Below are positions 1,139 through 63,254 of a stretch of 64,000 nt of DNA, piece by piece (within the stretch, counting starts at the first letter, position 1; each line of letters begins with the position of its first letter). The stretch is from Candidatus Thiodiazotropha sp. CDECU1 (GTDB lineage: Bacteria > Pseudomonadota > Gammaproteobacteria > Chromatiales > Chromatiaceae): contig NZ_OY734020.1 in NCBI RefSeq assembly GCF_963455295.1, positions 1,240,001 to 1,304,000 on the forward strand, read 5' to 3'. Both the position numbers and the translations under genes were made by a program. The notes beneath the pieces are model-generated. The model did no database searches, was not told the origin of the DNA, and was given only the letters and a program-made list of their open reading frames with translations.

Positions 1139-2524
1139 TCATTTCTCGATTCCATGGCGCTTCATCTTCTCCCAAAGGTTTTTGCGAGATATACCGAGCG
1201 CATCCGCTGCCTGGCTCATTTTCCCGTCATTTTCGGTTAATGCCATGATGATTGCTTTGCGTTCCGCTGTTTCAATTGAGTGCCTCAGGGTTGTCATGCT
1301 GATGTTTTTGTTATCGTCTTCCTGGGTCAGCAGGTCATTGATGCTGATCCAGGGTGCGTCACACAAGGTGACCGCTCTTTCGATAGCATTTTTAAGTTCA
1401 CGGACATTTCCCGGAAAGGGCATGGATTGCAGCTGTAACTCCACCTCTTTTGAAAGCCCTTTAATACTTTTCCCCGATTTTTTGACAAATTCAGAGGCGA
1501 ACAACCTGGCGAGGTAGACAATATCTTCCCTGCGTTCCCGCAGTGGAGGGATGTCTATGTGAATGACATTGAGGCGCCAGTAGAGATCGGATCTGAATTC
1601 ATTTCTCTTGATGGATTCAGCGAGAGCAACCTGGGTTGCGGCGATGATCCTGGCATCCAGTGTGACTGTTTCCGAGCCACCGACACGCTCGAATTCACGT
1701 TCCTGTAGAATGCGCAGTAGTTTGATCTGTATGTCGGGTGATACTTCGGCGATCTCATCGAGAAAGATTGTCCCACCTTGAGCCTGTTCAAAGCGACCGA
1801 TACGTTGTTGTGTTGCCCCGGTGAAGGCCCCCTTTTCATGACCGAAGAGTTCACTTTCAATCAGGCTGGATGACAGTGCAGCACAGTTGACCTTGATCAT
1901 AGGGCCATGTCGACGTTGACTATTGCGGTGTATCAGGGTGGCTATCACCTCTTTACCAACCCCGGATTCACCCGTGAGCAAGACTGAACTGTCACTCTCT
2001 CCAAGACGGGCAACCAGACGTTCAATTTTGCGCATGGCTGAACTTTTGCCAAGGAATCCACTACCAGGTTTGAAGTTGTTTTCGGCGTCTGAGTGATTGT
2101 GAGTCAATCGCCTGTCGGCACTACAGGAGAGGTGGTGTTCTATCTTGCCAATAAGGTCATTGATATCAAAGGGTTTGGCCAGATAATCAAGTGCCCCGGC
2201 CTTGACCAGGGTAACAGCATCCGATACGTCACAGTAGGCTGTCATGAGGATTACAGGAATGCCGGGAAACTGGAGAGTAATATCGCTAAACAGTTCAATG
2301 CCTGTGCCATCGGATAGGCGAATGTCCGTGACAACAAGGTCGATATCACCTTCTTCAAGCGCTTTTCTGGCGCTGGCAATGTTACTCACCGCACATACAG
2401 GAATCTGTTCCAGGTTCAACCTGTCTTCGAGTGACAGCCGCATGATTTCATCATCTTCAACCAATAGTACGCGATATTCGTTGAAACCACTCCTGTCTTG
2501 CATATCGTTAAGCTTACCCTGCAT
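1139..2524 (-). CDS. NtrC-family sigma-54 response regulator of the cytochrome/Mo operon
   Basis: A 461-residue transcription activator with a receiver domain (about 17-130; phosphoacceptor Asp67 in VVTDIRL, Lys in the AKPFD segment), an AAA+ sigma-54 interaction domain (Walker A GESGVGKE at 185-192, sigma-54 loop GAFTGA at 232-237) and a C-terminal Fis-type helix-turn-helix (about 435-461). Its start overlaps the kinase stop by one base (TGATG), so the two are translationally coupled. The divergent operon begins with a textbook -24/-12 promoter and two GTTACC palindromes at 5186-5201 and 5279-5294, which are the likely binding sites of this protein. The architecture matches the ArxR-type regulators of arsenite oxidation loci, but the signal here is unknown. 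Confidence 0.93.
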   Translation of the reverse strand: MQGKLNDMQDRSGFNEYRVLLVEDDEIMRLSLEDRLNLEQIPVCAVSNIASARKALEEGDIDLVVTDIRLSDGTGIELFSDITLQFPGIPVILMTAYCDVSDAVTLVKAGALDYLAKPFDINDLIGKIEHHLSCSADRRLTHNHSDAENNFKPGSGFLGKSSAMRKIERLVARLGESDSSVLLTGESGVGKEVIATLIHRNSQRRHGPMIKVNCAALSSSLIESELFGHEKGAFTGATQQRIGRFEQAQGGTIFLDEIAEVSPDIQIKLLRILQEREFERVGGSETVTLDARIIAATQVALAESIKRNEFRSDLYWRLNVIHIDIPPLRERREDIVYLARLFASEFVKKSGKSIKGLSKEVELQLQSMPFPGNVRELKNAIERAVTLCDAPWISINDLLTQEDDNKNISMTTLRHSIETAERKAIIMALTENDGKMSQAADALGISRKNLWEKMKRHGIEK

Positions 2525-3999
2525 CAGGCTGCCTTGACTGCAATTATCGGTACGGAAACGTGGAATGTTGTACCCTGATTCTCGTCACTCATCACTTCAA
2601 TTATACCTTCCATACTTTGCACCAATCGATACACGACCCAGAGCCCCAGCCCTGTGCCGTTTGTCTTGGTTGTGAAAAAAGGATCAAAAAGTTGATTCCT
2701 TATGTTGGCCGGTATTCCTGGACCGTTATCACTGACCTCGATGATCAGATGGGCCCCATTCTGATGCATGCAGAAAACAACATTTCCTCCCTGTGGAAGT
2801 ATTTCTATTGCATTCTTCAGCAGGTTGCAGACGATCTGTTCGATTTTTCCAGGAATATGGAGATCCTTGTTGGCACGATTATCCCAGACCACATCGATAC
2901 TCCTGTCTCCAATCTCAGCCTGAATGAGATCATGAAGTTTATCAATATCCTGAATGCTTATTGATTCATGACTCTCTTCAATCTTAAGCCCTACCAACAG
3001 GCTGTGAACGATATCTTTGATTCTGTGCAGTCCTAGGTCGATGACCGGTAGGTAACGGTCAATCAGTTTTTTATCGTCTGGGTGCTTGCGCAACGTATCG
3101 ATACAGTTCAAAAGCCCAGCAAGGGGGTTGTTTACTTCATGTGCAACACCTGCTGTTATACGTCCGAGCGCAACCAGTTTCTCACTCATTGCGATCTCCT
3201 CTTCGAGCATCTTTTTTTCAGCCAATTCAACCATGATTTGGTTAAAGGTGACACTGAGGCGGCCGATCTCGTCCCTCTCCTTGATTGGAATAGGTGTGAA
3301 GTCCGTCATCTCACCCCGACCGACCGCTTCCAGTCCCTGGGTGACTGCGGTAAGGGGTTTGACCATGCGTCGTGACACAATTGTTCCCAAAACGCTGCCG
3401 ATAATAACGAAGCAGAATACAAGTGCAAGAACGATCAGCGCGGTATCTTTTGCTTTTTCGTATAATTGCGCGACAGACAAACGAACTCGAACAACACCCA
3501 TATATTTTTGATCAGAGAAGATTGGAACGACACCTTCCTGAAAACCTGTCTTTGAAAAACCCCCACTGCTTAGCACAATGGTTGACCTTGTATTCATGGC
3601 TTGTTTAAACAGCCTCTCTTCAATCTTGTTGTCAGGTGAAAACGGTAGGCCAATTTTATTACCCGCGGGATGAAGATGTGCCAGAACCTTGCCATCTGCA
3701 TCCAGTATCATTGCAGTGATTACTTCATGACCACCTGTTGTGTCTGATCTTCTGGATGCCATGTTCTTCAAGCTAAGATAGAGCTGCCAGTAGTCACTGC
3801 GCAGCATAACCTTGGGTGTGGTGACGGCGACAAATTCGGATAGCAGAAGGGCCTTGGCACCTAATTCATCCTGAAAGCGTTTCAGGTCCTGTACCACGAT
3901 CACTGCGCCGATCATAAAACCTACTGCCGCCACAACAGTTGTGATGGTAAGTGATAGCTTGATAGCCAATGGCCATGATTTTGGGCTGAATATCGGCAT
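2524..3999 (-). CDS. Membrane sensor histidine kinase of the cytochrome/Mo operon
   Basis: A 491-residue kinase: first membrane helix about 12-36, a periplasmic domain of about 150 residues, second helix about 186-207, a HAMP linker, then HisKA and HATPase. The phosphorylated His287 sits in AGVAHEVNNP; the N box is NLLKNAIE and the G boxes are DNGPGIP and GTGLGLW. I chose the ATG at 3999 because it leaves 13 bases after the upstream stop and has the hydrophobic helix close to the N terminus; longer upstream forms would run through the preceding gene. It sits between a periplasmic binding protein and the response regulator, as in TtrS- or ArxS-like three-component systems. It probably receives the signal from the 4013-4882 protein. 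Confidence 0.9.
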   Translation of the reverse strand: MPIFSPKSWPLAIKLSLTITTVVAAVGFMIGAVIVVQDLKRFQDELGAKALLLSEFVAVTTPKVMLRSDYWQLYLSLKNMASRRSDTTGGHEVITAMILDADGKVLAHLHPAGNKIGLPFSPDNKIEERLFKQAMNTRSTIVLSSGGFSKTGFQEGVVPIFSDQKYMGVVRVRLSVAQLYEKAKDTALIVLALVFCFVIIGSVLGTIVSRRMVKPLTAVTQGLEAVGRGEMTDFTPIPIKERDEIGRLSVTFNQIMVELAEKKMLEEEIAMSEKLVALGRITAGVAHEVNNPLAGLLNCIDTLRKHPDDKKLIDRYLPVIDLGLHRIKDIVHSLLVGLKIEESHESISIQDIDKLHDLIQAEIGDRSIDVVWDNRANKDLHIPGKIEQIVCNLLKNAIEILPQGGNVVFCMHQNGAHLIIEVSDNGPGIPANIRNQLFDPFFTTKTNGTGLGLWVVYRLVQSMEGIIEVMSDENQGTTFHVSVPIIAVKAA

Positions 4000-4012: not shown

Positions 4013-4882
4013 TTAGTCAGTTGGTAACATGGAATAGATAGGATCGGATCGTTTGATTTTGTAAACCATAGCGCGGATATCGTTGAACAATGAATCAGAA
4101 AAGTGACCAAAGCCGTCCAGTTTCAGGTTTTCCAGGAGTGCCTTGCCGGCTGAATCCTCATCCATTCTCTCTAAGGTACTCTTCATCAGACCGACAGTGG
4201 CGTCGTTTACACCTACACGGGAAACAATAGGTGGAAAGCCGAAGCTGGGTGAAGTTTTTATGATTCTGGTTTTCTCAGTGATGTCGGGTCTGAAGATGGC
4301 TAGATATTCCCATATATAGGAATCGACGGCTCCGGCATCAGCAACTTGTTCGGAGACAGCCTGAACTGTCTCAGCATGATTGAAAGTAAAAAAAGTATGG
4401 CGGAAAAATGTTTCTGGTTTCTCACCTTTCTCTATCATTAAGGAAAGAGGATAGAGGAATCCTGAATTGGAATCAGGATCTGAGAAGGCAAATATTTTTC
4501 CCTTCAGGTCGCTGAAGTGTTGGTCTGGGCTGTCATGGTGAACAATGATGTAAGAGTGATAACGGGGTGCGCCTCGGTAGATCGGTACGGTCAGCAGTTG
4601 CAGCGATTCAGGTTTTCTGATCTGGACATATGGATAACCGCATATCCAGGCAAAATCGATACCACCTGAATCCAACAGATCCATCACATCCTGATAAGAT
4701 TTCCGCAGCACAAATTCAACCTTACGATTCATCTTCTGACCTAGATATTGGCTCCACTGGTCTAGAAACCTGAGATTTTCAGTGACTACCACAGCGGTTA
4801 AACCAAAGCGTATGGGCGGCTCTGTTTCGCTGGCAAAAACAGGATTGATCCAGATAAGCATTAATAAACAGATCAGACGCAC
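4013..4882 (-). CDS. PhnD-like periplasmic binding protein, presumed signal sensor
   Basis: A 289-residue exported protein with a short signal peptide (cleavage near VFA-SE, residue 17) and a phosphate/phosphonate-type (PhnD) binding fold: RFGLTAVVV at the N terminus, the DFAWICGYPYV segment and FAFSDPDSNSGFLYP, typical of the ligand cleft. No ABC permease or ATPase is adjacent; instead a histidine kinase and a sigma-54 regulator follow in the same direction. Proteins of this type next to two-component systems (ArxX, or the PhnD-like domain of TtrS) are thought to bind the inducing oxyanion and present it to the kinase. The ligand cannot be read from sequence. First gene of the three-gene sensory operon. 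Confidence 0.85.
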   Translation of the reverse strand: MRLICLLMLIWINPVFASETEPPIRFGLTAVVVTENLRFLDQWSQYLGQKMNRKVEFVLRKSYQDVMDLLDSGGIDFAWICGYPYVQIRKPESLQLLTVPIYRGAPRYHSYIIVHHDSPDQHFSDLKGKIFAFSDPDSNSGFLYPLSLMIEKGEKPETFFRHTFFTFNHAETVQAVSEQVADAGAVDSYIWEYLAIFRPDITEKTRIIKTSPSFGFPPIVSRVGVNDATVGLMKSTLERMDEDSAGKALLENLKLDGFGHFSDSLFNDIRAMVYKIKRSDPIYSMLPTD

Positions 4883-5185
4883 TGGTGTTCCTCAAGAAAG
4901 ATTGCTACTCAGTATTCAGGTTTGGATTAAATGTCACGACCATACTTTCATTAAGTATGTGTCTTGTACTCTATGTGGGTGACATAAGCTTTCGTTGACT
5001 ATAACTGTCACTATTTGTAAAGCCCTATCCTGGAAAGGATAGCAAAAAAACCACTATATATATCTGGATATCGTCATCTTGATATAAATGTAGTTGCGCT
5101 ATTGCCGCTCTGATGACAAATAGTAGTGACTGTTTCGGCAGGGTAAATAAGAATATGGTGAGTTGCTGTCACCTATTTTCACTCT

Positions 5186-5201
5186 GTTACCCATTGGTAA
5201 C
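5186..5201. promoter_or_regulatory. Palindrome GTTACC-N4-GGTAAC, distal activator site
   Basis: A perfect inverted repeat with 6-base arms about 170 bases upstream of the -24 element. The identical arms recur at 5279-5294 with the same 4-base spacer. Position, symmetry and duplication fit an upstream activating site for a Fis-type sigma-54 activator. Binding by the 1139-2524 regulator is inferred. Confidence 0.7.
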
Positions 5202-5278
5202 GGAATGATATCGAGTAGTTACTCTAACAGTATGAAATTTATAGTTTAGTTTTTCCTGGTTACCTTTTTTCTGTTTTT

Positions 5279-5294
5279 GTTACCGCCTGGTAAC
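5279..5294. promoter_or_regulatory. Palindrome GTTACC-N4-GGTAAC, proximal activator site
   Basis: Second copy of the palindrome, centred 93 bases downstream of the first (about nine helical turns) and about 70 bases upstream of the -24 box. A GGTTACC half-site lies at 5258-5264 between the two. Confidence 0.7.
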
Positions 5295-5356
5295 AAGTTT
5301 TAGCCTTAATCTCACCAGCATTATATTAATCTTGTTAATTCAAGTAGATAGAAATA

Positions 5357-5371
5357 TGGCGCGACTCTTGC
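5357..5371 (+). promoter_or_regulatory. Sigma-54 (-24/-12) promoter of the cytochrome/Mo operon
   Basis: TGGCGCG-ACTC-TTGC, with the invariant GG (5358-5359) and GC (5370-5371) exactly 10 bases apart. Transcription would start near 5383, about 60 bases before the first gene. The divergently encoded regulator has the GAFTGA loop needed to activate such a promoter. Confidence 0.88.
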
Positions 5372-5445
5372 CCTTTTGTTCAGCAATGCATTTTTTCTCA
5401 TACCGAATAACTTAGCCATAGTTTGGAGTTGGAGAAGACTGGGCA

Positions 5446-6972
5446 ATGAACAGTGGCGGCGGGATAAATATTACCTGGCGATTGGCGGCAATTCTTTTTG
5501 TTGCGGCAATTCTGTTTTTTTTAACTGCCTGGGGTGGTGTTGAGTACTATACCGCACAATCCTCATTTTGTGGCGGTAGTTGCCATACCATGACAGAACA
5601 GTATGAGGCCTGGAAATCGAACTACCACCACAAGAGCAACAACCCTGATGGGATGCAGGCAGATTGCGTAGATTGTCACTTTCTACCAGGTGATAAACAC
5701 TCTCTGAAGGCAAAATATGAGGGATTGCGACATCTGGCTGCCTATCTCTATAACCCGAATGCGCCACTACCCATACGCCCGGTGATCCCGGATGGCGCCT
5801 GTCTGCAAGCAGGTTGCCACGATCGGGAAATGCTTGGCCAAATTGAAATACAGTACACAGAGAAGGTTCGCTTCAAACACCAGGTCCATTTCAGTGACCA
5901 GGCGCTCGATGGCTACCCGATTACTTGTGATACCTGCCACTTTAAAACATCAGAAGCCAAGCATTTTGAGGTCCCCACGGAGATCTGCTATCTGTGCCAT
6001 TTGAAGCTTGAAAAACCCACCCTTGATAAGGCTGAGATGAGTGAGTGTTGTACAGGTGGCGATATTCAGAAGATCACCTTCGTAAACAGACCAGCCATAG
6101 ATTTCAACCAGGGGGCGTCCCGTTGCGATATCTGTCATGCGATCCCTGAAACATCCTTGCAAAGCCAGTTGCAGGTCGGTGATGAGGCAACAACCAAGAA
6201 ACCGATAACACATCAGTCGATACAGGAAGCGAATGTGGCCTGTGAGAGCTGCCATTTCGAGGTGGTGAAGGGCGGGGGAGAGGTCGTTACCGGAAATGTG
6301 GTGTCGAATGGATGCTTGACCTGCCACAACAGAAGTCAAACCCTGCTGGCCACTGCAGGAGACAAGACACTGATGCATGACAAGCATGTGCCCGACAAGG
6401 CGGACTGTTTTGATTGCCATAGTGTGATCGAACACAAGAACAGAACCGATCATCTCGATTTTGTACGCAACGATTGCCAACTCTGCCACGTTGATCAACA
6501 TAAATATCAAAAGCTGCTGCTTTCAGGAATGCCTGTTGATGAGGAGATTTCAGGTACTCCGCATCTGATGTATGAAGTCAATACCAACTGTATGGCTTGT
6601 CATCTAAAGAAGACATTGAGCAGGGGGCATGATGTAAGAACTGCATCCGGTGATACCTGCGCTGCCTGTCACACAGATCAGCATATACAAATGCTCAGCG
6701 ACTGGAAGGAGTTGCTCGGCAGTGAGGTTGCTGATGTAGAAGAGGTTGAAACTGAAGCACTGGATCTGCTTGCAGAATTGGAAGCGAACTTGACTGAGGA
6801 GCAGTTATCCCTGGCAGAGTCGATGATGGGCAAGGGCAAAGAGCTGTTGAATATAGTGCGTGTCGGTAACGGCGTTCACAACAAGAAATATGCAATCACT
6901 ATTCTTGATGGCGCCTTTGGTAATTTCGAAGACACGATTGAACTACTTGAAGCAACAAGGACTACTGAATGA
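5446..6972 (+). CDS. Membrane-anchored 12-haem c-type cytochrome, NapC/NirT-like N terminus
   Basis: A 508-residue protein with one N-terminal membrane helix (about 9-29) directly followed by FCGGSCHTM, as in NapC/NrfH/CymA quinol dehydrogenases. I count twelve potential haem sites: ten CXXCH (for example CVDCH, CYLCH, CQLCH, CAACH) plus one CX3CH (CGGSCH) and one CX4CH (CLQAGCH). The last ~85 residues lack haem motifs and are acidic/helical. It is the first gene of the operon and replaces the NrfD-type membrane subunit that usually partners such Mo enzymes, so it probably passes electrons between the quinone pool and the Tat-exported FeS and Mo subunits. It is much longer than the tetrahaem NapC proteins; the downstream haem domain is of unassigned type. 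Confidence 0.88.
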   Translation: MNSGGGINITWRLAAILFVAAILFFLTAWGGVEYYTAQSSFCGGSCHTMTEQYEAWKSNYHHKSNNPDGMQADCVDCHFLPGDKHSLKAKYEGLRHLAAYLYNPNAPLPIRPVIPDGACLQAGCHDREMLGQIEIQYTEKVRFKHQVHFSDQALDGYPITCDTCHFKTSEAKHFEVPTEICYLCHLKLEKPTLDKAEMSECCTGGDIQKITFVNRPAIDFNQGASRCDICHAIPETSLQSQLQVGDEATTKKPITHQSIQEANVACESCHFEVVKGGGEVVTGNVVSNGCLTCHNRSQTLLATAGDKTLMHDKHVPDKADCFDCHSVIEHKNRTDHLDFVRNDCQLCHVDQHKYQKLLLSGMPVDEEISGTPHLMYEVNTNCMACHLKKTLSRGHDVRTASGDTCAACHTDQHIQMLSDWKELLGSEVADVEEVETEALDLLAELEANLTEEQLSLAESMMGKGKELLNIVRVGNGVHNKKYAITILDGAFGNFEDTIELLEATRTTE

Positions 6973-7025
6973 GGCGTTAGCAGTATTACGCTACCAATAC
7001 ACGCGGAGGATGAGGAGAGAACAGT

Positions 7026-7877
7026 ATGAGTGATCAGAAACAACCGGAAATCAGTCGCCGCAAGTTTCTAGGTGGCGTCGGTTCCGCAGCCGCTGGTGCA
7101 GCAGCACTGGCAACACCAAATGTTTCGCTTGAGGCGGCGCAATCGAAAGCCCCTCGCTGGGCAATGGTCATGGATCTCAGGCGGTGTATTGGCTGCAGGG
7201 CCTGTACGGTGGCATGTAAATCGGAGAACAGGGTATCGCTTGGCCGGTTCAGGGCAGTCATCCAAGAGAAGACCATGGGTAGCTATCCAAATACTAAGAA
7301 GGCATTCCTGCCATTGATGTGTAATCACTGCGAAGGAAATGAAAAGGATGCTGTTCCGCCATGTGTGAAAGCCTGTCCGGAATACCCTGGCAAGCGTGTC
7401 AAGTTCAAGACTGCTGATGGGAAGACAATACGTTATCGGACTGGCGCTACTTATAAACGACCGGACGGCTTGATCCTGATAGATAAAGAGAAGTGCATCG
7501 GTTGTGGCAAATGTATTGATGCCTGTCCGTATGGTGTTCGTTCATTTGATCCCTTTGTCAAAGCTGGTGCTGATCCAACCAAGCAGGCAGCCGACAAGTG
7601 CGATATGTGCGCACATCGAGTCGACAATGGGGTAGAGCCATCATGTGTCAATACCTGTCAAGGGCGTGCGCGTATCTTTGGCGATCTTAACGATCCAAAC
7701 AGCCAGGTTTCGCAACTCGTGAAACAGCACAATCTTGCGACACCCGATAATGTGCTGCTTGCTGATGAGGGAACCAACCCGCATGTGTTCTATATTGATC
7801 CGGATAATATCTTAAAGACCCTCTATACACAGCGGAAGAAGGGAAAACTGGACCACTTTGTGGATCAGATTGTTTAG
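7026..7877 (+). CDS. Tat-exported four-cluster ferredoxin subunit (DmsB/PsrB/ArrB type)
   Basis: A 283-residue electron-transfer subunit. The N terminus carries a twin-arginine signal (SRRKFLGG, residues 10-17) followed by an Ala-rich region. Sixteen cysteines form four [4Fe-4S] motifs: CIGCRACTVACK, CNHC...CVKACP, CIGCGKCIDACP and CDMC...CVNTC. The pattern is that of the small subunits of polysulfide, thiosulfate, tetrathionate and arsenate reductases. A ribosome site GAGGAG precedes the ATG by about 7 bases. It would bridge the multihaem cytochrome and the molybdenum subunit encoded on either side. A separate Tat signal on this subunit is somewhat unusual, since such subunits often travel with the catalytic subunit. 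Confidence 0.92.
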   Translation: MSDQKQPEISRRKFLGGVGSAAAGAAALATPNVSLEAAQSKAPRWAMVMDLRRCIGCRACTVACKSENRVSLGRFRAVIQEKTMGSYPNTKKAFLPLMCNHCEGNEKDAVPPCVKACPEYPGKRVKFKTADGKTIRYRTGATYKRPDGLILIDKEKCIGCGKCIDACPYGVRSFDPFVKAGADPTKQAADKCDMCAHRVDNGVEPSCVNTCQGRARIFGDLNDPNSQVSQLVKQHNLATPDNVLLADEGTNPHVFYIDPDNILKTLYTQRKKGKLDHFVDQIV

Positions 7878-7910
7878 TCCCTTGCGGCATGTTTTTAGAG
7901 AGGAATTGAT

Positions 7911-10433
7911 ATGAAAAAGTTAAATCGTCGAAATTTTATCAAATTGGCAGCTGGTGGCGGCAGTGCATTGGCTGCAGGATTGGGTTTCAGTCAAGGTGCA
8001 TTGGCCGGATCGATCAAGCTGCAGGCAGGAGGCCGCGATTTCTCACCAACCACCAAGAAGGAGTTGCAGGCAATTCCTACCGCCTGTTGGCAGTGTGTTA
8101 CCCGTGATGCCATGATCGGCTATGTTGAAGATGGACGGGTGGTAAAACTGGAGGGTCACCCTGACTCCATTCGTACCCTTGGCAAGCTTTGCGCCAAGGG
8201 ACAGGCCGGCGTCAATCATGTCTATTTCCCGGATCGTATTCTCTATCCAATGCTGCGTGTGGGTAAGCGTGGTGAACATAAGTGGAAGAGAGTCTCCTGG
8301 GATGAGGCACTGGATCTTATGGCATCCAAGCTCAAACCGCTGCTTGATGCCGGCACACCGGAACTGTTCATGTACCAGTATGGCCGCCACAAGGGTAGTC
8401 AGTCCTCGATCATGCACGATTTCATGGATGCCTTCGGTTCGCACACCATTGGCACCCATACATCGGTCTGTGAAGGACCAAAATGGGTTGGTCAGGAGAG
8501 CTTATGGGGCGGGATGTACGATAACTGGGATTACGATCATACAGATTTCGTGGTGAATTTTGGTTCAAACCAGTTCGAGACCCATACCAACCACATACCA
8601 ACTTCGCAACGTCTGATTAGGGCAATGGTTGACCGCAACGTCCCCCTCTACACCTTTGATGTGCGTCTTTCCAACACGGCTGCCAAATCAACCGAGTGGA
8701 TTCCCATCAACGTTGGCAAGGACGGTCTTGTGATGCTTGCCATGGTCAACGTAATAATGAACGAAAAATTGTTCCGCAGGGATCATCTTAAATATATGCG
8801 TGTATCGCCGGATTATCATGCCACTGATGATGAAAAGATCGCGGCTATTAAAAAGCATGTCGAAAAGTTCACGCCGGAGTTTGCGGCAAAGGAAAGCGGT
8901 GTTCCGGCCGATAAGATCAGGCAGATTGCACGCGGCTATGCCAAGGCCAAGTCAGCTTGTTTGATTGGTTATCGTGGCACTGTTATGCATTATCACGGCG
9001 CGGATCAGGAGCGCGCTGCGATGTTGCTGTCGGCGATAACCAATAACCTGGATAGAAAAGGTGGGCGGGTAATGGGCGTAGGCGCCGGTTGGAAGGCACC
9101 CCATTCACCCAAGGCCAAAGTACAAAAAGGTCTGGATATCGTGAATGGTTTTCCTGGTGAAGCGGCTTTTCCAACTCACCAATGCAGCCAGCAAAACCTT
9201 CCGATGATCAAGGATGGGCAAAATGGCAGACCCAAGGTTTACTGGTCGAGCTGTAACAATCAGGCCTTTATAAATGGAAACAACAACGAGGCTGAAGCGA
9301 TCTTGAAGGATGAGAGCTTGATTCCGTTCTATGTGAATTCAAATATCGTTTATGACGAGACTTCACAATACGCCGACCTTATCCTGCCGGATGTCACCTA
9401 TCTGGAACGCTGGGATACTGAAGATATGGTATCTCCGACCGGAGTTGCCGAGTACTACATCCGACAACCCCTTATCAAGCCGCTGGGTGAGGCGCGGGAT
9501 CAGGGTGAGATTTTCGCCGGATTGGCGAAGCGGTTGGGTATCGAACTGGCCTATTCGAGCAAGGAGGAGTATGTGCGTAAGTCCTGTGAATTGACACCGG
9601 GAGTCAAGGAGGCCGGTGGCTTCGAGTACATGAAGAAACAGGGTGTCTGGCACGATAAGAACGCCAAGCCGAATTTTGGTTTCTATGAAGCCAAGGTTGA
9701 TGTCTCCGGCGATGGTGTGATTCTCGATGAGAAGACAGGTGTCTACTGGAATTACAAGCAGGCGGGGGTCAGCGAGGCCGAGGCCAGGAGTAAAGGATTC
9801 CTGGGAGTCGAGGGGGCTAAGGATGCCTATGTTGCTCAGAATATTGCTGGAACGCCACGCAAGGCCTATCCACCCAATACATCTTTTGTAAAGTCCGGAT
9901 TGCTCGACTTCTACTCAGACAACTTTGCGGCAAAGGGATTCCCGCCGTTCCCAACTTATACGCCGATACCCGAGCATCAGAAGATGGGTAAGGATGATTT
10001 GCATTTGACTACCTACAAGGTGGCCGTGCATACCCACTCTCGCACATCGCATTGCAAGTGGCTCACTGAGATCAAGCACGACAATCCAGCTTGGATAAAT
10101 AGCAAGACTGCTGCTGCTCGTGGCATCAAGGATGGTGACCGCATCAAGGTGGCCAGTGAGCTTGGTGAGATAACCACCACGGCCCATGTTACCGAGGGAA
10201 TCATCCCCGGTATCATCGCCATTTCACACCACTTGGGACGTCAGCATTCAGGTATCTACGGATCGGGTAAAAGTTCTCCCACACCCGGGGGTGCAAGCGC
10301 AGATCCGGATGCCAAGAATATGTGGTGGGACAAGCATGGAATACATCCCAATTCAATCATTCCGAACAGTTCCGACCCGATTAGTGGCGGACAACGGTGG
10401 ATGGATACAGTGGTAAAAGTCGCCAAGGTATAG
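7911..10433 (+). CDS. Mo-bisPGD oxidoreductase catalytic subunit, substrate unknown (PsrA/PhsA/ArrA superfamily)
   Basis: An 840-residue DMSO-reductase-family enzyme exported by Tat (NRRNFIKL, residues 5-12). The N-terminal FeS motif reads C59-X2-C62-X3-Asp66...C94, so the third cysteine is replaced by aspartate. A Cys at 187 in HTSVCEGP sits where the Mo-ligating cysteine of polysulfide/thiosulfate/arsenate enzymes lies. The C-terminal molydopterin-binding domain (VAVHTHSRTSHCKW onward) is complete. The neighbourhood where arsenate reductases have an RGRYT-like and ArxA a GRGWG-like motif reads QYGRHKGSQ, arguing against both. Its partners are the 12-haem cytochrome, the ferredoxin subunit and a TorD chaperone. 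Likely a periplasmic respiratory reductase for an oxyanion or sulfur compound; oxidation is possible. Substrate cannot be assigned. Confidence 0.88.
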   Translation: MKKLNRRNFIKLAAGGGSALAAGLGFSQGALAGSIKLQAGGRDFSPTTKKELQAIPTACWQCVTRDAMIGYVEDGRVVKLEGHPDSIRTLGKLCAKGQAGVNHVYFPDRILYPMLRVGKRGEHKWKRVSWDEALDLMASKLKPLLDAGTPELFMYQYGRHKGSQSSIMHDFMDAFGSHTIGTHTSVCEGPKWVGQESLWGGMYDNWDYDHTDFVVNFGSNQFETHTNHIPTSQRLIRAMVDRNVPLYTFDVRLSNTAAKSTEWIPINVGKDGLVMLAMVNVIMNEKLFRRDHLKYMRVSPDYHATDDEKIAAIKKHVEKFTPEFAAKESGVPADKIRQIARGYAKAKSACLIGYRGTVMHYHGADQERAAMLLSAITNNLDRKGGRVMGVGAGWKAPHSPKAKVQKGLDIVNGFPGEAAFPTHQCSQQNLPMIKDGQNGRPKVYWSSCNNQAFINGNNNEAEAILKDESLIPFYVNSNIVYDETSQYADLILPDVTYLERWDTEDMVSPTGVAEYYIRQPLIKPLGEARDQGEIFAGLAKRLGIELAYSSKEEYVRKSCELTPGVKEAGGFEYMKKQGVWHDKNAKPNFGFYEAKVDVSGDGVILDEKTGVYWNYKQAGVSEAEARSKGFLGVEGAKDAYVAQNIAGTPRKAYPPNTSFVKSGLLDFYSDNFAAKGFPPFPTYTPIPEHQKMGKDDLHLTTYKVAVHTHSRTSHCKWLTEIKHDNPAWINSKTAAARGIKDGDRIKVASELGEITTTAHVTEGIIPGIIAISHHLGRQHSGIYGSGKSSPTPGGASADPDAKNMWWDKHGIHPNSIIPNSSDPISGGQRWMDTVVKVAKV

Positions 10434-10450
10434 ATTCATAGAAAGCATCG

Positions 10451-10473
10451 GCAGCCCCGTAATGAGGGGCTGC
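10451..10473 (+). terminator. Hairpin between catalytic subunit and chaperone gene
   Basis: GCAGCCCC-GTAATGA-GGGGCTGC forms a perfect 8-base-pair stem 18 bases after the Mo-subunit stop. No T tract follows, so it is more likely an mRNA stabiliser or attenuator that lowers expression of the distal chaperone gene than a full terminator. Confidence 0.5.
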
Positions 10474-10513
10474 TGAATCGCGACGAATGGTTGATTGTAG
10501 CAGGAGGATTGAT

Positions 10514-11167
10514 ATGGGAATTGACAGAAAAGACTTGGTTGATAGTGCCAGATCAAGAAGTGATATATATGGGCTATTGAGTACGGTTTTTCGACGCGAG
10601 CCCAGTCAGGACCTGATCAAGAGAATGAGGAGTGACAGTTTGTTGGGTACCTTCACCGGCTTGGGTGTTGAATTAGGTGAGCGGTTCTATAACGACCGTG
10701 AATCTGAGGTGGTTGAGGAGTTGGCAATAGAGTATGCCCGCCTGTTCATCGGTCCTGGTCAACATATCTCTGCCCATGAGTCTATCTTTAACGAGGCAGA
10801 TGGTGAAATGGGTGGCCTATGGGGTGTAAAGACTGTCGAAGTGAAAAAATTTATCCAGGCCACCGGTCTCGAATATGGGAAAAACTTTACCGGTCTTCCT
10901 GATCATATCAGTGTTGAACTTGAGTTTATGCAGAAACTGACAGAGTGGGAAGCCGACAAGTGGCTGCAGGAAGACCGAGAGAGTGCAGAACAATGTCAGC
11001 TAGTGCAGCATAAGTTTCTAGAACAACATCTCCTGTGTTGGGTGAATTCTTTCTGTGATGCAGTCTTGGATCAGGCTGAAATACCCTTCTATAGAGTGAT
11101 GGCTGAGCTGACTAAACAGTATATGGAGTTTGAACGGCAGAGCATTGCAACCGATACAGCTGCTTGA
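10514..11167 (+). CDS. TorD/DmsD-family redox enzyme maturation chaperone
   Basis: A 217-residue all-helical cytoplasmic chaperone. It shows the family features YARLFIGPG and the E-P-D-H-like segment GLPDHISVELEFM. Such proteins bind the Tat signal of a DMSO-reductase-family subunit and hold it until the Mo cofactor is inserted. The ATG at 10514 is chosen because AGGAGG lies 7 bases upstream; an earlier in-frame start at 10487 has no ribosome site. It closes the operon, so its client is presumably the 7911-10433 subunit. Confidence 0.88.
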   Translation: MGIDRKDLVDSARSRSDIYGLLSTVFRREPSQDLIKRMRSDSLLGTFTGLGVELGERFYNDRESEVVEELAIEYARLFIGPGQHISAHESIFNEADGEMGGLWGVKTVEVKKFIQATGLEYGKNFTGLPDHISVELEFMQKLTEWEADKWLQEDRESAEQCQLVQHKFLEQHLLCWVNSFCDAVLDQAEIPFYRVMAELTKQYMEFERQSIATDTAA

Positions 11168-12164: not shown

Positions 12165-12190
12165 ATAATTCAATAGATCTCTTGAATTAT
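12165..12190. promoter_or_regulatory. Inverted repeat ATAATTCAA-N8-TTGAATTAT, probable ArsR-type operator
   Basis: Perfect 9-base arms located 20 bases before the regulator ATG and just after a TATAAT box at 12146-12151. The AATTCA/TGAATT arms resemble the operators of BigR-like ArsR repressors. Likely used for autoregulation and for the divergent desaturase gene. Confidence 0.7.
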
Positions 12191-12210
12191 TGAAGTTCAT
12201 TGGGGCCAAT

Positions 12211-12870
12211 ATGTCAAGTACGCATTTCAAACACGATCTGTTCAATGAGTTTGCCCGGGTCGCTAAGGCGATGAGTAACGGTTACCGTTTGGAATTGTTG
12301 GAATTTCTGGCGCAGGGCGAACGCAGTGTGGATGCCTTGGCGCAGGTATCGGGACTGACGGTGGCGAATACTTCGCAACACCTGCAGCAGTTGCGGCAGG
12401 CAGGCCTGGTGGTTAACCGCAAGGAGGGTCACAAGGTCATTTATCGCTTGAGTGGTATGGATGTTTCATCCCTGCTCGCAGCATTGCGCGAAGTGGCGGA
12501 ACACCGCCTGGCGGAAGTGGACCGTCTTGTGGATGACTATCTGAAGGTCAAAGACGGCCTGGAGCCCATACCGGCCAGTGAACTGCTCGAGCGTGTGAAA
12601 CAGGGCCTGGTAACCGTGCTGGATGTTCGCCCCAGGGAGGAGTACCAATCGGGGCATCTGCCCGGAGCCATCAACATCCCGATTAACGAGCTTGAAGCAC
12701 ATCTTGACAGTTTGGATCCAGAACGTGAAATCGTCGCCTACTGTCGCGGTCCCCATTGTGTATTGGCCTTTGATGCGGTGGCCAAACTGAGACTGAAAGG
12801 ATTGACGGCGTACCGTTTGGAAGGGGGGCTTCCGGAGTGGCTGCTGGAGGGATTACCGGTCGAGAGATGA
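12211..12870 (+). CDS. ArsR-family repressor fused to a rhodanese domain
   Basis: A 219-residue protein. Residues about 5-85 form an ArsR/SmtB winged helix (GLTVANTSQHLQQLRQAGLV is the recognition region); residues about 120-218 form a rhodanese domain with the active-site loop C178-RGPH-C183. No metal-binding CxC motif of classical ArsR is present in the helix. Such fusions are thought to sense sulfane sulfur or persulfides, which fits a sulfur oxidiser. The ATG at 12211 is preferred over an upstream TTG at 12190 that lies in the operator. The divergent gene is a desaturase-like protein. Confidence 0.9.
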   Translation: MSSTHFKHDLFNEFARVAKAMSNGYRLELLEFLAQGERSVDALAQVSGLTVANTSQHLQQLRQAGLVVNRKEGHKVIYRLSGMDVSSLLAALREVAEHRLAEVDRLVDDYLKVKDGLEPIPASELLERVKQGLVTVLDVRPREEYQSGHLPGAINIPINELEAHLDSLDPEREIVAYCRGPHCVLAFDAVAKLRLKGLTAYRLEGGLPEWLLEGLPVER

Positions 12871-53340: not shown

Positions 53341-55356
53341 TTAACGGTTGTCTTGTTTAATGTCGTGTTTTTGGATCTTGCGATAGAGCGTGTTTCTGCT
53401 CATATCGAGGGCTTCCGCAGTACGCGATATGTTCCAGTTATAGGTTTTCAGTGCATTCAGAATTACCATATGTTCTGCGGACCTTAGAGGATTGTCTGAG
53501 GTTGCTTCAACATGAGTGGGTTCTTCGCTTTGCACGGTCGGTGCAGCCATCTCCTGGGGCTGGCTAAGGGGAGGCTTTATATTCCGTCCAACCAGGGTCG
53601 GCAGATTGATATGGGATGCATCGATGACGTCCCCATCACACAGGGCAACAGCGGTTCGTATAACATTCCGCAGTTGACGCAGATTGCCCGGCCAGGGATA
53701 TTTCAGCAGATGTGAAATGGCTTCCGGGGTGATTTGCAGTTTCTTGCCGGTATCGTTTTCCGCCTCGAGGACCTTGAGGATGATATTGCGCAGATCCTGG
53801 CGCTCTCTGAGAGGCGGTAAGTAGAGAGTGATACCGTTGAGTCTATAGTAGAGGTCTTCGCGAAATGCACCCTCATTGATCAGTTGTACAAGGTCGCGAT
53901 GGGTCGCGGCCACGATGTTGAGATCGACCTTGATCAGCTCCTCCGCGCCAAGGGGGACAACCTCTTCCGTTTCGAGTACGCGTAGCAGTCTGGATTGCAT
54001 ATTCAGCGGCATATCGCCGATCTCATCCAGGAACAGGGTGCCGCCGCTGGACTCTATCAGCTTTCCGCGCCGTCCCTCTTTGCGTGCCCCGGTAAAGGCG
54101 CCATGTTTATAACCAAACAGTTCGCTTTCGATGAGTGACTCGGGGATTGAGGCGCAGTTCAAGGCAACAAAGGGTTTATCCTTGCGCTTACTTGCCTTGT
54201 GCATTGCCTGAGAGAAGAGGTCCTTGCCGGTTCCCGTTTCTCCCTGCAATAGAATCGGGATACGCTTATCAATCACCCGTAGTGCACGTTTGGCCGCATC
54301 CAGCATCTGCGGATCTTCACCGGCAAGTTTATTCAGGTTACAGAGTTCCCCGCGACACTCATCGGGACTTTGGGTGGCGGGTTTGATCGTGAGCCCACGC
54401 AAAGGTGCCGGTTCCTTGTACTTGTAGATGAAGCCGAAAAAGCGCGCACCGCTCTCCTGGTGACGGAAAGGTAGCACGGTACCTTCATTTGACTTTGAGG
54501 CGAACAATAAACTATCGAGATCATTACCCACAAGTTCAGACAGGCTCTTGCCGATCAGCATACTCCTATCGTGAATCCCAAGCAGTTGTAACGCGATGAT
54601 GTTGGCAGCGAGAATCCTATTGTCTTCACCTAGCGCAAGCATCGCTTCATTCGGCAATGCGACACACTCCACGCGACTGTGAAAACGCAATACCCGTTGA
54701 TTGCGGAATTCACGCAGAAAATATCGGCCTTCAATCAGGCGTGCATAACTGACGACCAAGGCACGGGTATGGATCTGCGAGGCACGCGAGTCCTGCGTGC
54801 CGCAACAGGATGCGTCCAGCACGGTAAGCAGATTGCCATGCGGGTCGAGTATCGGCGATGCCGAGCATGAGAGGTCGATGTTTTGTCTGAGAAAATGTTC
54901 ATCACGGTGCACGGTTACCGGGCGCCTTTCCGATATACAGGTGCCTATGCCATTGGTACCGACATGCCCCTCTCCCCAGTCCGCTCCCTGCCACAATCCA
55001 GCCTTCTTGAACTCCTCGGTCAGATTATCCTCGACCTGATGATGCAGGATGAGACCTTTGTTATCGGTCAATATGACGGCATAACCGCTACCGGATAGTG
55101 CCGATGCCAGATTGGCCAACTCCGGTTCTGAGAGCCTGATAAAGGCATCGAAACGGGATCTGAGTTCATGCAGGGTCTGCGGTTCGAGAACATTCGGGCC
55201 GCGGGGCTTGAATGGGTCCAAATGATCATCATTCAAACAGCGTTGCCAGGATCTGACAATCTCACGCTCAATGCCTAGATCCTCAACACCATCACTCAAC
55301 GCCGCCACTGAAGAGAGGCGCTGAGCATGTTGCCGAAGCTTCTGATTTTGGGTCAT
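53341..55356 (-). CDS. AcoR-type sigma-54 activator with GAF domain
   Basis: A 671-residue activator (ATG 55356; GTG at 55362 is two codons earlier). An N-terminal GAF-type sensory region (about 60-330, with DWGEGHVGTNGIGTC) takes the place of a receiver domain. The AAA+ domain has Walker A GETGTGKD and the sigma-54 loop GAFTGARKE; a Fis-type helix-turn-helix ends the protein (NISRTAEALDMSRNTLYRKI). AcoR-like proteins sense small metabolites such as acetoin or alcohols. It lies between three genes with -24/-12 promoters (53103, 55786, 57545) and is the obvious candidate for their activator. Confidence 0.92.
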   Translation of the reverse strand: MTQNQKLRQHAQRLSSVAALSDGVEDLGIEREIVRSWQRCLNDDHLDPFKPRGPNVLEPQTLHELRSRFDAFIRLSEPELANLASALSGSGYAVILTDNKGLILHHQVEDNLTEEFKKAGLWQGADWGEGHVGTNGIGTCISERRPVTVHRDEHFLRQNIDLSCSASPILDPHGNLLTVLDASCCGTQDSRASQIHTRALVVSYARLIEGRYFLREFRNQRVLRFHSRVECVALPNEAMLALGEDNRILAANIIALQLLGIHDRSMLIGKSLSELVGNDLDSLLFASKSNEGTVLPFRHQESGARFFGFIYKYKEPAPLRGLTIKPATQSPDECRGELCNLNKLAGEDPQMLDAAKRALRVIDKRIPILLQGETGTGKDLFSQAMHKASKRKDKPFVALNCASIPESLIESELFGYKHGAFTGARKEGRRGKLIESSGGTLFLDEIGDMPLNMQSRLLRVLETEEVVPLGAEELIKVDLNIVAATHRDLVQLINEGAFREDLYYRLNGITLYLPPLRERQDLRNIILKVLEAENDTGKKLQITPEAISHLLKYPWPGNLRQLRNVIRTAVALCDGDVIDASHINLPTLVGRNIKPPLSQPQEMAAPTVQSEEPTHVEATSDNPLRSAEHMVILNALKTYNWNISRTAEALDMSRNTLYRKIQKHDIKQDNR

Positions 55357-55419
55357 TTTCACTCCATCCGGTCATAATGGCAGTCAGTCTGCACTAGTTA
55401 TTATTTTTTTGTTGTCGTA

Positions 55420-55431
55420 ACAGTTAACTGT
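55420..55431. promoter_or_regulatory. Perfect palindrome ACAGTTAACTGT
   Basis: Twelve-base palindrome in the region shared by the AcoR-type regulator gene and the flavoprotein gene, 64 bases upstream of the regulator start. Possible binding site of the regulator or another factor. No copy was found at the other promoters. Confidence 0.4.
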
Positions 55432-55785
55432 AGACGCTATGCAACCAATTTTGTATATAAAGTGTTCATTTTCGACACAATCGATTGTTCAAAAATGGCA
55501 TAGCCAGTCAAATTGGATTTTGCCTTTTTCCGGCACAACGTGTGTGCCGTCGCAAAATCAAAGATCAAATTGTTAATCACGTCTCACGCTATTACAGTTC
55601 GTAATAATGCTTACAATAACAATCGGATACTGTCTATTTATAGTTCTTTATCAGGGCTTGTCGGCGGTGATTCAGCGGCTTGGAATATCCAGGTTTCAAG
55701 CCTGTTTCCAGGATCTCCCGGTAAATCGTCACAAGCATAAACCACCAACACTATTCATATAACATCAATTTCTATACCAACATGG

Positions 55786-55800
55786 TGGCGCGCTTTTTGC
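55786..55800 (+). promoter_or_regulatory. Sigma-54 (-24/-12) promoter upstream of the flavoprotein gene
   Basis: TGGCGCG-CTTT-TTGC, with GG (55787-55788) and GC (55799-55800) exactly 10 bases apart. Nearly identical to the promoter at 5357. The start near 55812 is about 275 bases before the ATG. Confidence 0.85.
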
Positions 55801-56088
55801 GAGGGCTTTAGGCACAATCATTTTCAGGTCGAAATCCTGTGTAAGGTCCGGGATCTATCCCGGTTTTGTGCGGAATTGGGCGGCTGGAATTTTCGGGTAG
55901 TTCACACAAAGTTGGGCGGGTAATTGGATGCTGGTGATCCCTCTACATTGGAAGATTACAAACACAGCAGGCGTTGTAACAACGACAGTCCAAGGCTCAG
56001 TCAGGAAGAAGTTCGGAGTAGTTGTAAAACACTTACGATCAGCTTTGATCCTTAGGTGTTTTGCTTTCAGGGAGTGGAGATAGAGACT

Positions 56089-57366
56089 ATGCAGCATGTG
56101 ATCATTGGAGCCGGACCCGCAGGTGTGGTTGCGGCCGAATCGATTAGAAAATTCGATAAATCCAGTACTGTCACATTAATCAGCAATGAATCGGAAAGGC
56201 CCTATTCACGACTGGAGATACCTCGGTTTCTGCAAGGCAAGATCGACGAAAAGGATACCTATCTCAGATGTGGCCAAAACTATTTTGCATCCCAGTCCAT
56301 CGATGTATGCAAAGGCAGTGTTGTCAAGGTAGAGAGCCAGAATAATGCAATCAATCTGGCAGATGGCACCCGCTTGGAATATGACCGTTTATTGATTGCC
56401 ACCGGGAGCCGGCCAGAAAAACCGAAGATACCCGGTAGTGAACTTCCTGGTGTGGTCAACTGCTGGACCCTCGAGGATGCAAGGAAGATTATCTGCAACC
56501 TGGGTATCAACAGCCGCTTGGTCGTTGTTGGCGGTGGCTTTATCGGATTCGTCATCATCGATGCACTGGCACGCACAGGTGCGCAGATAAACCTGATCGA
56601 GAAGGGTAAGCATGTCCTTCCGCACATGATGGACGATAACTCCAGCAGTCTCATACAGTCATGGTGCGAGGCGAAAGGAATTACGGTACAAACCTGCGTC
56701 GACGTCAAAGCGATTGATAGAAAGAGAAAGACGAATAAAAGCACCGGTTCGGGTTTGAATCAGCTCACCGTGTTACTGAACAGTGGTGAATCAATTACTG
56801 CGGACATGGTAATTTTCGCCACTGGCACAAAAATGAATACAACGTTTTTAGAGGGATCAGGGATTGCCTTCGATCATGGTGTGCTTGTGGACGAGCGCCT
56901 CAACACAACCCAGCCGAATGTATTTGCCGCCGGTGATGTTTGTCAGGGACTTGGCTTCTCTACGGGTGGACGAAGGGTGCAAGCCGTGCAACTTACCGCC
57001 AGTGAGCATGGCCGTATAGCAGCAGCAAACATGTGTGGTCTCAAGGCAAAATTATCAGGCAGTCTCACCATGAATGTGCTTGATACGCTGGGACTTGTCT
57101 CAAGCTCTTTTGGCACCTGGAATGGAATTCAGGGTGGTGAGAGTGCTGTCTATTCCTTAACAAGCAGCTACACATATCTGAATCTCCAGTTTGATGAGGA
57201 GAGACTGATCGGTGCATCCAGTATCGGTAATGCTGAACATCTACAGCTACTACCTAGATTGATTCATTCAAATTTACCCCTTAAAGGGTGGAAAAAGCGG
57301 CTCATGCAGGATCCGTGTCGCGTTGGTGAGGCTTATCATGCGCTCTCCCAGGGTGCCAGACAGTAG
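56089..57366 (+). CDS. FAD-dependent NAD(P)H oxidoreductase (rubredoxin/nitrite reductase-like)
   Basis: A 425-residue pyridine nucleotide-disulfide family flavoprotein. It starts MQHVIIGAGPAGVVAAESIR (FAD), then RLLIATGSRPEKP, LVVVGGGFIGFVIIDAL (NAD) and the FAAGDVCQG FAD motif. No redox-active CXXXXC pair is seen, so it is of the type that reduces an acceptor protein. It has its own sigma-54 promoter and precedes the alcohol dehydrogenase gene by 278 bases. Its place in alcohol oxidation is unclear; it may be a partner of one of the cytochromes. Confidence 0.85.
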   Translation: MQHVIIGAGPAGVVAAESIRKFDKSSTVTLISNESERPYSRLEIPRFLQGKIDEKDTYLRCGQNYFASQSIDVCKGSVVKVESQNNAINLADGTRLEYDRLLIATGSRPEKPKIPGSELPGVVNCWTLEDARKIICNLGINSRLVVVGGGFIGFVIIDALARTGAQINLIEKGKHVLPHMMDDNSSSLIQSWCEAKGITVQTCVDVKAIDRKRKTNKSTGSGLNQLTVLLNSGESITADMVIFATGTKMNTTFLEGSGIAFDHGVLVDERLNTTQPNVFAAGDVCQGLGFSTGGRRVQAVQLTASEHGRIAAANMCGLKAKLSGSLTMNVLDTLGLVSSSFGTWNGIQGGESAVYSLTSSYTYLNLQFDEERLIGASSIGNAEHLQLLPRLIHSNLPLKGWKKRLMQDPCRVGEAYHALSQGARQ

Positions 57367-57544
57367 TTTGCTGGAACACTGTAAATACAACAATTGTGTT
57401 GAGTCTTGAATCACTGTCCCAAAAACATGACAGCACAGACAGGCTAGACACTTCCCGCCAAATATTCTTTTCAGTCCAAGCGTTTTCATTGTTTTTTAAA
57501 TAAAAATAAGCGCTTAACAATAAACAAAAGCCAACAATTCCGTT

Positions 57545-57560
57545 TGGCCTGCTTCTTGCT
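57545..57560 (+). promoter_or_regulatory. Sigma-54 (-24/-12) promoter of the alcohol dehydrogenase operon
   Basis: TGGCCTG-CTTC-TTGCT with GG (57546-57547) and GC (57558-57559) exactly 10 bases apart, about 85 bases before the ATG at 57644. Upstream at 57414-57433 lies CTGTC-N10-GACAG, a possible activator site. Confidence 0.85.
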
Positions 57561-57643
57561 CAAACGTCTAACCAGGAATGGGAGTTATCCAACAAACTGT
57601 CACGGGAACAGAACAATCCAATGAACCTGGAGGAGAAGAGATT

Positions 57644-59410: not shown

Positions 59411-59581
59411 TCAGTTGGGCCAGGGTCGGATATAGCACGCAATATCCGACCCTGGTTCAGGCCAAGCAACCTTATTACACAAACAACCAACTCAGTATTC
59501 GATAGATAAATAGCGAAAAGGGAAATTGTTGGATGATTATCATCTTTCGGTTTTCTGTTTGATTACCTGGAGTATTTCCAC

Positions 59582-60010: not shown

Positions 60011-60039
60011 TCACTGAGACATAACAATGAGAGAGTGAT

Positions 60040-63248: not shown

Positions 63249-63254
63249 CCCGGT

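Follow-up and report, generated by a model that had tools for sequence, protein, structure and literature searches.

A conserved molybdoenzyme locus with an arsenic-type sensor and a 12-heme cytochrome in Candidatus Thiodiazotropha: a possible third kind of arsenite oxidase

Several described systems come close to the locus reported here. The arx clusters (arxXSR/arxB2ABCD) encode an anaerobic arsenite oxidase, and AioXSR belongs to the aerobic arsenite oxidase system. In the arsenate respiration of Shewanella, CymA, a cytochrome of the NapC/NirT family, replaces ArrC (PMC2500031). Next to Arr lies a clade with the gene order B-C-A that Duval (2008) named unk and in which nothing had been studied; it includes an anchorless subgroup with a large iron-sulfur (FeS) subunit and no twin-arginine translocation (Tat) signal (PMC2500031). 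The orphan clade and the NapC-family partner of an arsenic molybdoenzyme were therefore known before, and our literature search found no function assigned to the clade labeled “unknown” in 2008. Here, we analyze a 64,000-nucleotide stretch (the window; contig NZ_OY734020.1, positions 1,240,001 to 1,304,000) of the 4.46-Mb, single-contig genome of Candidatus Thiodiazotropha sp. CDECU1. It carries the genes of a molybdenum (Mo) enzyme, a 12-heme cytochrome, and a sensor that resembles those of arsenite oxidase systems.

The architecture of the locus is certain. A regulator-kinase-sensor block is divergent from a cytochrome-ferredoxin-Mo-TorD operon, with a gap of 563 bp between them (Table 1). 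All genes named in a preliminary description of this DNA were confirmed by open reading frames (ORFs) and domains, and the homologous divergent sensor, kinase, and regulator agree with its view of an inducible respiratory locus with an arx-like layout. The range that it gave, 4013-11167, runs correctly from sensor to TorD but leaves out the kinase and regulator at 1139-3999. Our preferred reading, held tentatively, is that the locus encodes a third kind of periplasmic arsenite oxidase, induced by arsenite and distinct from both Aio and Arx. Arsenic is quite likely to be the inducer and is, on balance, the expected substrate; if the substrate is arsenic, oxidation is the fairly likely direction. 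The Mo enzyme is thus probably an unrecognized arsenic-respiring enzyme. Overall, the observation of the locus is confirmed, and the interpretation first attached to it is partly supported.

The sensor was initially called PhnD-like, which does not hold. In a phmmer search against Protein Data Bank (PDB) sequences it scores 212 bits with AioX, 126 with ArrX, 57 with PtxB, and 53 with PhnD, which places it by sequence in the AioX/ArxX family of arsenic-oxyanion sensors, with arsenic binding predicted. The substrate, first given as an unassigned oxyanion or sulfur compound, is therefore not simply open: the sensor family favors arsenic over sulfur. The AioX pocket comprises Tyr88, Cys106, Tyr131, Ser161, Ser163, His192, and Asp210, arsenite being bound by Cys106; of the oxyanions examined, AioX and ArxX bound only arsenite, not antimonite or selenate, while ArrX, which has the same pocket residues and a shorter loop, binds arsenate (PMC5908839). 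The window sensor has seven of the seven pocket residues (Y, C, Y, S, S, H, and D), Cys81 being the equivalent of Cys106, and almost every sensor of the family keeps them as well. Its loop at residues 53-61 has the AioX/ArxX length, not that of ArrX. The TtrS sensor domain is without the pocket Cys.

In 299 surveyed genomes of Pseudomonadota, the more similar sensors (36-44% identity) are mostly found beside AioA, ArxA, or the Mo clade of the window. The exceptions are loci L108/L131 and L112, with no arsenic Mo gene in the stretch examined, and at L109 the large protein beside the sensor does not match AioA. Phylogeny further indicates that related cassettes have exchanged their sensors for AioX-clade or ArxX-clade ones. 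L023 has a Mo subunit 76% identical to that of the window and a sensor that lies inside the AioX clade, and the sensor of L045, a cassette with an NrfD gene, lies inside the ArxX clade (bootstrap/Shimodaira–Hasegawa-like approximate likelihood-ratio test, SH-aLRT, 100/100 in both cases); the sister group of ArxX is formed by the Azoarcus-type sensors (92/86). One Mo clade is thus served by three lineages related to arsenite sensors; without an arsenic oxyanion as the inducer, this would be difficult to account for.

The enzyme might instead turn over another pnictogen or chalcogen oxyanion, such as antimonite, thioarsenate, selenite, or tellurite, that the same Cys pocket senses. The host habitat is sulfidic, and arsenic there is generally taken to be largely present as thioarsenates; the active-site loop of the Mo subunit is of a new form (see below), and the pocket residues do not set the ligand, as ArrX illustrates (PMC5908839). 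We nevertheless regard this alternative as unlikely, given that the characterized AioX and ArxX took arsenite rather than antimonite or selenate (PMC5908839), that SrrA and SrdA are of the Psr/Phs and Ttr lineages (PMC7331816), and that the Sb(III) oxidase NaoA is nearest to NapA (PMC11521347).

The intergenic region holds paired operators. Two perfect GTTACC-N4-GGTAAC dyads were found in the 64-kb window against 0.06 expected, and no shuffle reached two; the only further dyad in the genome, at 2626286, falls within an unrelated gene, and we attribute it to chance. The promoter lies 78 bp past operator 2 and 89 bp ahead of the cytochrome ATG, a -24/-12 match by itself not being rare in the window. 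Among the 37 upstream regions of the family that were long enough, 27 have two dyads at a spacing of 90-93 bp, eight have one, and two lack the dyad; most of the promoters downstream lie 78-80 or 90-92 bp from the dyad. The same dyad occurs upstream of complete arx clusters (L099, L133, and L135), and a variant, GTTACG-N4-CGTAAC, upstream of the Azoarcus type. In the Sulfuricella denitrificans arx cluster (L086), the sole such dyad is within the annotated arxB2. The documented AioR site is GTT-N10-AAC, and the footprinted site is GTTCGGATTTCCGAAC (PMC5335332). AioA loci have GTTCGG-type sites that resemble the footprinted one, and L023, the cassette with an AioX-clade sensor, has no GTTACC dyad but the AioR-like sites GTCCGATTTTCCGAAC and TGGCACAGCTATTGC instead. 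In genome G487, GTTACC dyads (L133:15809-15866) also lie upstream of a third gene for a molybdoenzyme (from 16006), a neighbor of the arx cluster.

Table 1. Features of the locus in window coordinates.
Feature	Position	Strand	Basis
Sigma-54-dependent response regulator (ArxR/AioR-like): receiver, AAA+, and Fis-type helix-turn-helix domains	1139..2524	-	Pfam
Membrane sensor histidine kinase: sCache_3_2, HAMP, HisKA, and HATPase	2524..3999	-	Pfam
Predicted periplasmic oxyanion sensor, AioX/ArxX family	4013..4882	-	phmmer against PDB, pocket alignment, sensor tree
Predicted operator 1, GTTACCCATTGGTAAC; fits the AioR spacing GTT-N10-AAC	5186..5201	.	Rarity, conservation
Predicted operator 2, GTTACCGCCTGGTAAC; 93 bp after operator 1	5279..5294	.	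Rarity, conservation
Predicted sigma-54 -24/-12 promoter, TGGCGCGACTCTTGCC	5357..5372	+	Position conserved in related loci
12-heme c-type cytochrome: one N-terminal transmembrane helix, NapC/NirT-NrfH-like N-terminal domain	5446..6972	+	Pfam, motifs
Ferredoxin with four [4Fe-4S] clusters, TtrB/ArrB/PsrB-type subunit	7026..7877	+	Domains, Cys count
Catalytic Mo-bis(pyranopterin guanine dinucleotide) subunit: Tat signal, Fe4S4, molybdopterin, and dinucleotide-binding domains	7911..10433	+	Domain models
TorD-family chaperone	10487..11167	+	Pfam PF02613; NCBIfam TorD-type

The kinase most plausibly starts at the ATG at 3999 rather than at the 4110 of the listed ORF. The ferredoxin has a Tat-like N-terminus and exactly 16 Cys, arranged as four sets of four, and the TorD-family protein is predicted to act in Mo cofactor insertion and Tat proofreading.

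Aligned to ArrA, residues Cys187, His183, and Arg159 of the Mo subunit match Cys193, His189, and Arg165, and His160 matches Tyr166. We take the roles of the ArrA residues, including Cys193 as the Mo ligand, from general knowledge; by alignment, the Mo ligand of the window protein would be Cys187. The active site reads QYGRHKG, with neither the (R/K)GRY of ArrA nor the XGRGWG of ArxA, as the preliminary description had noticed, and YGR(H/N/M)K is a new form of this loop in the family. Against solved structures, the family profile scores 269 bits with PsrA and 265 with ArrA. The Mo subunit reaches 164 bits against the NCBIfam ArrA model (cut-off 1600) and 323 of 694 bits against PhsA.

We placed the Mo subunit in quick maximum likelihood trees with SH-aLRT support. 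Some references were fragments from PDB alignments. For ArrA and ArxA, we used the ANA-3 structure, the S. denitrificans plasmid, and further references assigned according to profile score or gene context; PsrA/PhsA stood for the lineage that includes SrrA, and TtrA for the one that includes SrdA. The family's clade (SH-aLRT 99) also holds an NrfD type, the Azoarcus KH32C type, and an anchorless branch, and is sister to Arr+Arx (SH-aLRT 88-92). Approximately unbiased (AU) tests rejected a grouping with ArrA (P = 6.7e-8), ArxA (P = 3.45e-74), and PsrA/PhsA (P = 2.5e-5), and the trees placed the Mo subunit elsewhere than TtrA. It therefore falls outside these characterized clades; a place inside one of them would have refuted the preliminary description. 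A SoeA candidate of the same genome, L169, named by its gene order alone (Mo-FeS-DmsC/NrfD), groups with TtrA and not with the window protein. The label “SoeA” for L087-L089 was unsupported, and the anchorless, Tat-less Unk subgroup fits these loci. No second close relative of the window Mo subunit was found in the host genome.

By its traits, rather than by the sequences of Duval, the Mo clade of the window matches the Unk clade. The order FeS-NrfD-Mo occurs in the wider clade (L044, L045, and Azoarcus), and L087-L089 of that clade have a large FeS subunit and no Tat signal. The window keeps B before A, and an NrfD-type C is present in the sister branch. From these comparisons, the locus appears to belong to the orphan Unk clade, as a variant with a cytochrome, and not to ArxA, ArrA, Psr/Phs, Ttr, or Soe. 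In a Sedimenticola MAG (metagenome-assembled genome; L055:4743-10737), a 34% identical Mo relative lies between a phosphonate-type binding protein and an ATP-binding cassette (ABC) ATPase; this uptake-linked enzyme of the same wide clade adjoins an ArsR-rhodanese regulator. The host genome itself has another operon of multiheme cytochrome, Mo, FeS, and TorD-like genes (L168, 3680-7741), in which the cytochrome is of the c7 type and the Mo subunit is 25% identical.

Candidatus Thiodiazotropha are sulfur-oxidizing gill symbionts of lucinid clams. The enzyme could accordingly act on a sulfur oxyanion (thiosulfate, polysulfide, tetrathionate, or sulfite) within the host's sulfur oxidation, and a partial soxB at 24-1079 of the window, the slightly higher profile score with PsrA than with ArrA, and an ArsR-rhodanese regulator near several loci would fit such a role. 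So would a distant anchorless branch of the wider Mo clade, which adjoins the sulfur-transfer genes DsrE and TusA. A sulfur substrate is nonetheless doubtful, because the Mo subunit lies outside PsrA/PhsA, TtrA, and the own-genome SoeA candidate, the sensor belongs to an arsenic-linked family unlike the Cys-less TtrS domain, and the ArsR-rhodanese regulator is not conserved along with the cassette. This fusion regulator is encoded at 12190-12870 of the window and recurs near the cassette or its relatives in L008, L010, L015, L055, L058, and L094, where a sulfur-sensing link is possible.

The gene set recurs far beyond this host. We found 53 loci with the Mo subunit. Besides the window, some 35-40 loci carry the same cassette, mostly in marine gamma- and alphaproteobacterial MAGs; present in dozens of genomes, it is not unique to the host. 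Clustering of neighbors in the 53 loci and a few from the host's own genome gave 52 loci with Mo, 49 with FeS, 44 with TorD, 39 with cytochrome, 38 with sensor, 37 with regulator, and 36 with kinase, counts that are affected by several contigs ending within the cassette. Peptide patterns derived from the window served as queries, which leaves distant relatives under-sampled. Recurrence across 36-52 loci is far above chance. The hosts comprise Thiodiazotropha, other gammaproteobacteria including the tubeworm symbiont Endoriftia (L058), many Rhodospirillales-type alphaproteobacterial MAGs, and one Desulfobacteraceae MAG (L047). The closest public record of the Mo subunit, at 99% identity, belongs to a symbiont of Ctena orbiculata, a lucinid clam, followed by Candidatus Thiodiazotropha MAGs. 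Our literature search found no paper on this locus in Thiodiazotropha, nor on Azoarcus KH32C with arxA.

Many hosts have, after the cassette, a gene for a small secreted protein with CGWWGDGE behind the signal peptide and a degenerate tyrosine-phosphatase-like domain (L017:11283-12005(-) and 17 related loci); in L045:11298-11942, Sel1 repeats take the place of that domain. This protein was not found in the genome of the window.

The window cassette has no NrfD gene, and in the nearest relatives, at 51-55% identity (L044, L045, L062, and others), an NrfD gene separates FeS from Mo. The description of a 12-heme NapC-type cytochrome in place of NrfD proved right, and relatives at ~53% identity do retain NrfD. 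The 12 heme motifs are 10 CXXCH, one CX3CH (residue 42), and one CX4CH (residue 119), a pattern retained in 38 of the 41 family members. The N-terminus matches Pfam PF03264 (Cytochrom_NNT, NapC/NirT; E = 1.7e-15) and scores 51 bits against the NrfH model, below the cut-off of 134. A CH-x-M49 motif is conserved across the family; in NrfH, the CHxM motif gives the heme-1 ligand beside the quinol site. No match was found among PDB sequences, and an AlphaFold2 model (mean predicted local distance difference test, pLDDT, 50; predicted template modeling score, pTM, 0.33) was too poor for a fold search. Six alphaproteobacterial loci (L034, L035, L036, L039, L041, and L059) encode a diheme cytochrome c, similar to cbb3 subunit III, directly after TorD; it suggests a candidate electron acceptor and an exit to soluble cytochromes.

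The cytochrome bears on the direction of catalysis. In a respiratory arsenate reductase, quinol would be oxidized at the NapC-like domain, as with CymA, and the Mo subunit would reduce arsenate to arsenite. This is improbable in our estimation, although the NapC/NirT/NrfH domain with its conserved CHxM motif, the ArrA-type Arg, His, and Cys of the Mo subunit, the sister position of its clade to Arr+Arx, and the precedent of CymA with ArrAB in Shewanella (PMC2500031) all suit it. The sensors have the arsenite-type loop and are swapped for AioX and ArxX sensors, which serve oxidases, and the GRY motif of ArrA is missing. Furthermore, searches of the host genome returned no MenD over the cut-off and no MqnA (controls were detected), so its quinone is presumably ubiquinone. 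Ubiquinol is a poor electron donor for arsenate by established redox values. With ubiquinone, these potentials favor arsenite oxidation over arsenate reduction, but only slightly.

Arsenic genes surround some relatives. Relatives at 38-41% identity lie beside arsA-ACR3 on the Azoarcus KH32C plasmid and, in genome G487, at a distance of ~8 kb from a complete arx cluster. The host has its ACR3 elsewhere in the genome, in a region with copper-oxidase-like genes, and searches of that genome gave no AioA over the cut-off and no ArxA.

Several observations weigh against an arsenite oxidase. NapC-family cytochromes usually oxidize quinol, i.e., they work for reductases. The active-site loop is unlike those of both ArrA (GRY) and ArxA (GRGWG), part of the wider clade adjoins the sulfur-transfer genes DsrE and TusA, BLAST found no ArsA or ACR3 in the examined flanks of cytochrome-type cassettes, and no assayed member of the Mo clade was found in the literature. 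In addition, control sensors L114-L129, found in the 299-genome survey in a single family of genomes (f189) and 27-35% identical, have an intact pocket including the Cys, and they adjoin TtrS-like kinases and other, non-arsenic genes. These controls rule out pocket conservation alone as proof of arsenic sensing: the AioX pocket residues are necessary but not sufficient, and sensors should not be annotated from them.

Were the locus an arsenite oxidase, periplasmic arsenite would bind the sensor at Cys81, the kinase would phosphorylate the regulator, and the regulator would bind the GTTACC-N4-GGTAAC dyads and fire the sigma-54 promoter. The exported Mo subunit, its Mo ligated by Cys187, would then turn arsenite into arsenate, and His183 and Arg159 would position the oxyanion as they do in ArrA. 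Electrons may pass from the Fe4S4 cluster of the Mo subunit through the four ferredoxin clusters to the heme chain, which would hand them to soluble c-type cytochromes or, at the NapC-like membrane domain, to ubiquinone. With electrons leaving via the multiheme cytochrome, an NrfD subunit would not be needed. More tentatively still, the locus could represent an independent class of respiratory arsenite oxidases, the third, in which an orphan-clade catalytic subunit is joined to a dedicated 12-heme cytochrome in place of the quinone-binding NrfD, in animal symbionts and in bacteria from marine waters and sediments poor in oxygen, with repeated exchange of sensors with aio and arx systems.

Elsewhere in the window, ORF translations at 53341-63827 indicate a large sigma-54 regulator and a region like that of a pyrroloquinoline quinone (PQQ)-dependent alcohol dehydrogenase, typical of methanol or alcohol oxidation.

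What is new here is the identity of the sensor, the paired operators, the sensor swaps, the placement of the Mo clade, and a host genome in which no AioA, ArxA, or menaquinone pathway was found. The regulatory evidence gives the Mo clade a concrete candidate substrate. If our preferred reading is true, arsenic redox metabolism reaches chemosynthetic animal symbionts and marine low-oxygen and sulfidic bacteria, which surveys by arrA, arxA, and aioA would miss, and a multiheme cytochrome substitutes for the NrfD membrane subunit within a single enzyme family.

The locus shares with the arx clusters a divergent sensor-kinase-sigma-54 regulator block facing a Mo/FeS/TorD operon, a sensor 40% identical to ArxX, a regulator 43.5% identical to ArxR of the S. 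denitrificans cluster, GTTACC-N4-GGTAAC operators with a -24/-12 promoter, and the Cys ligand, xGR, and HxSxC active-site signatures. It differs in a Mo subunit that is ~26-31% identical in local segments, lies outside the ArxA clade, and lacks GRGWG, in having FeS before Mo and no ArxB2, and in the 12-heme cytochrome that stands in for the NrfD-type ArxC. With AioXSR it has in common the sensor family, the pocket residues, the sigma-54 output, and the GTT-N10-AAC spacing, and the related cassette L023 uses an AioX-clade sensor; the operator arms are GTTACC rather than GTTCGG, and the controlled enzyme is not AioBA, as there is no Rieske subunit. Like ArrAB with CymA, it appears to tie an arsenic-type Mo/FeS pair to quinone through a multiheme cytochrome of the NapC/NirT family instead of NrfD. 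CymA, however, is a tetraheme general hub, whereas the 12-heme protein is dedicated and encoded in the operon, and the Mo subunit is not ArrA. The Unk clade resembles it in being sister to Arr and outside Psr and Ttr, in a Tat signal on the Mo subunit, and, as regards the NrfD-bearing relatives, in placing the FeS gene first and the Mo gene last; the window cassette departs from it in having no NrfD-type C and in a multiheme NapC-type cytochrome that heads the operon.

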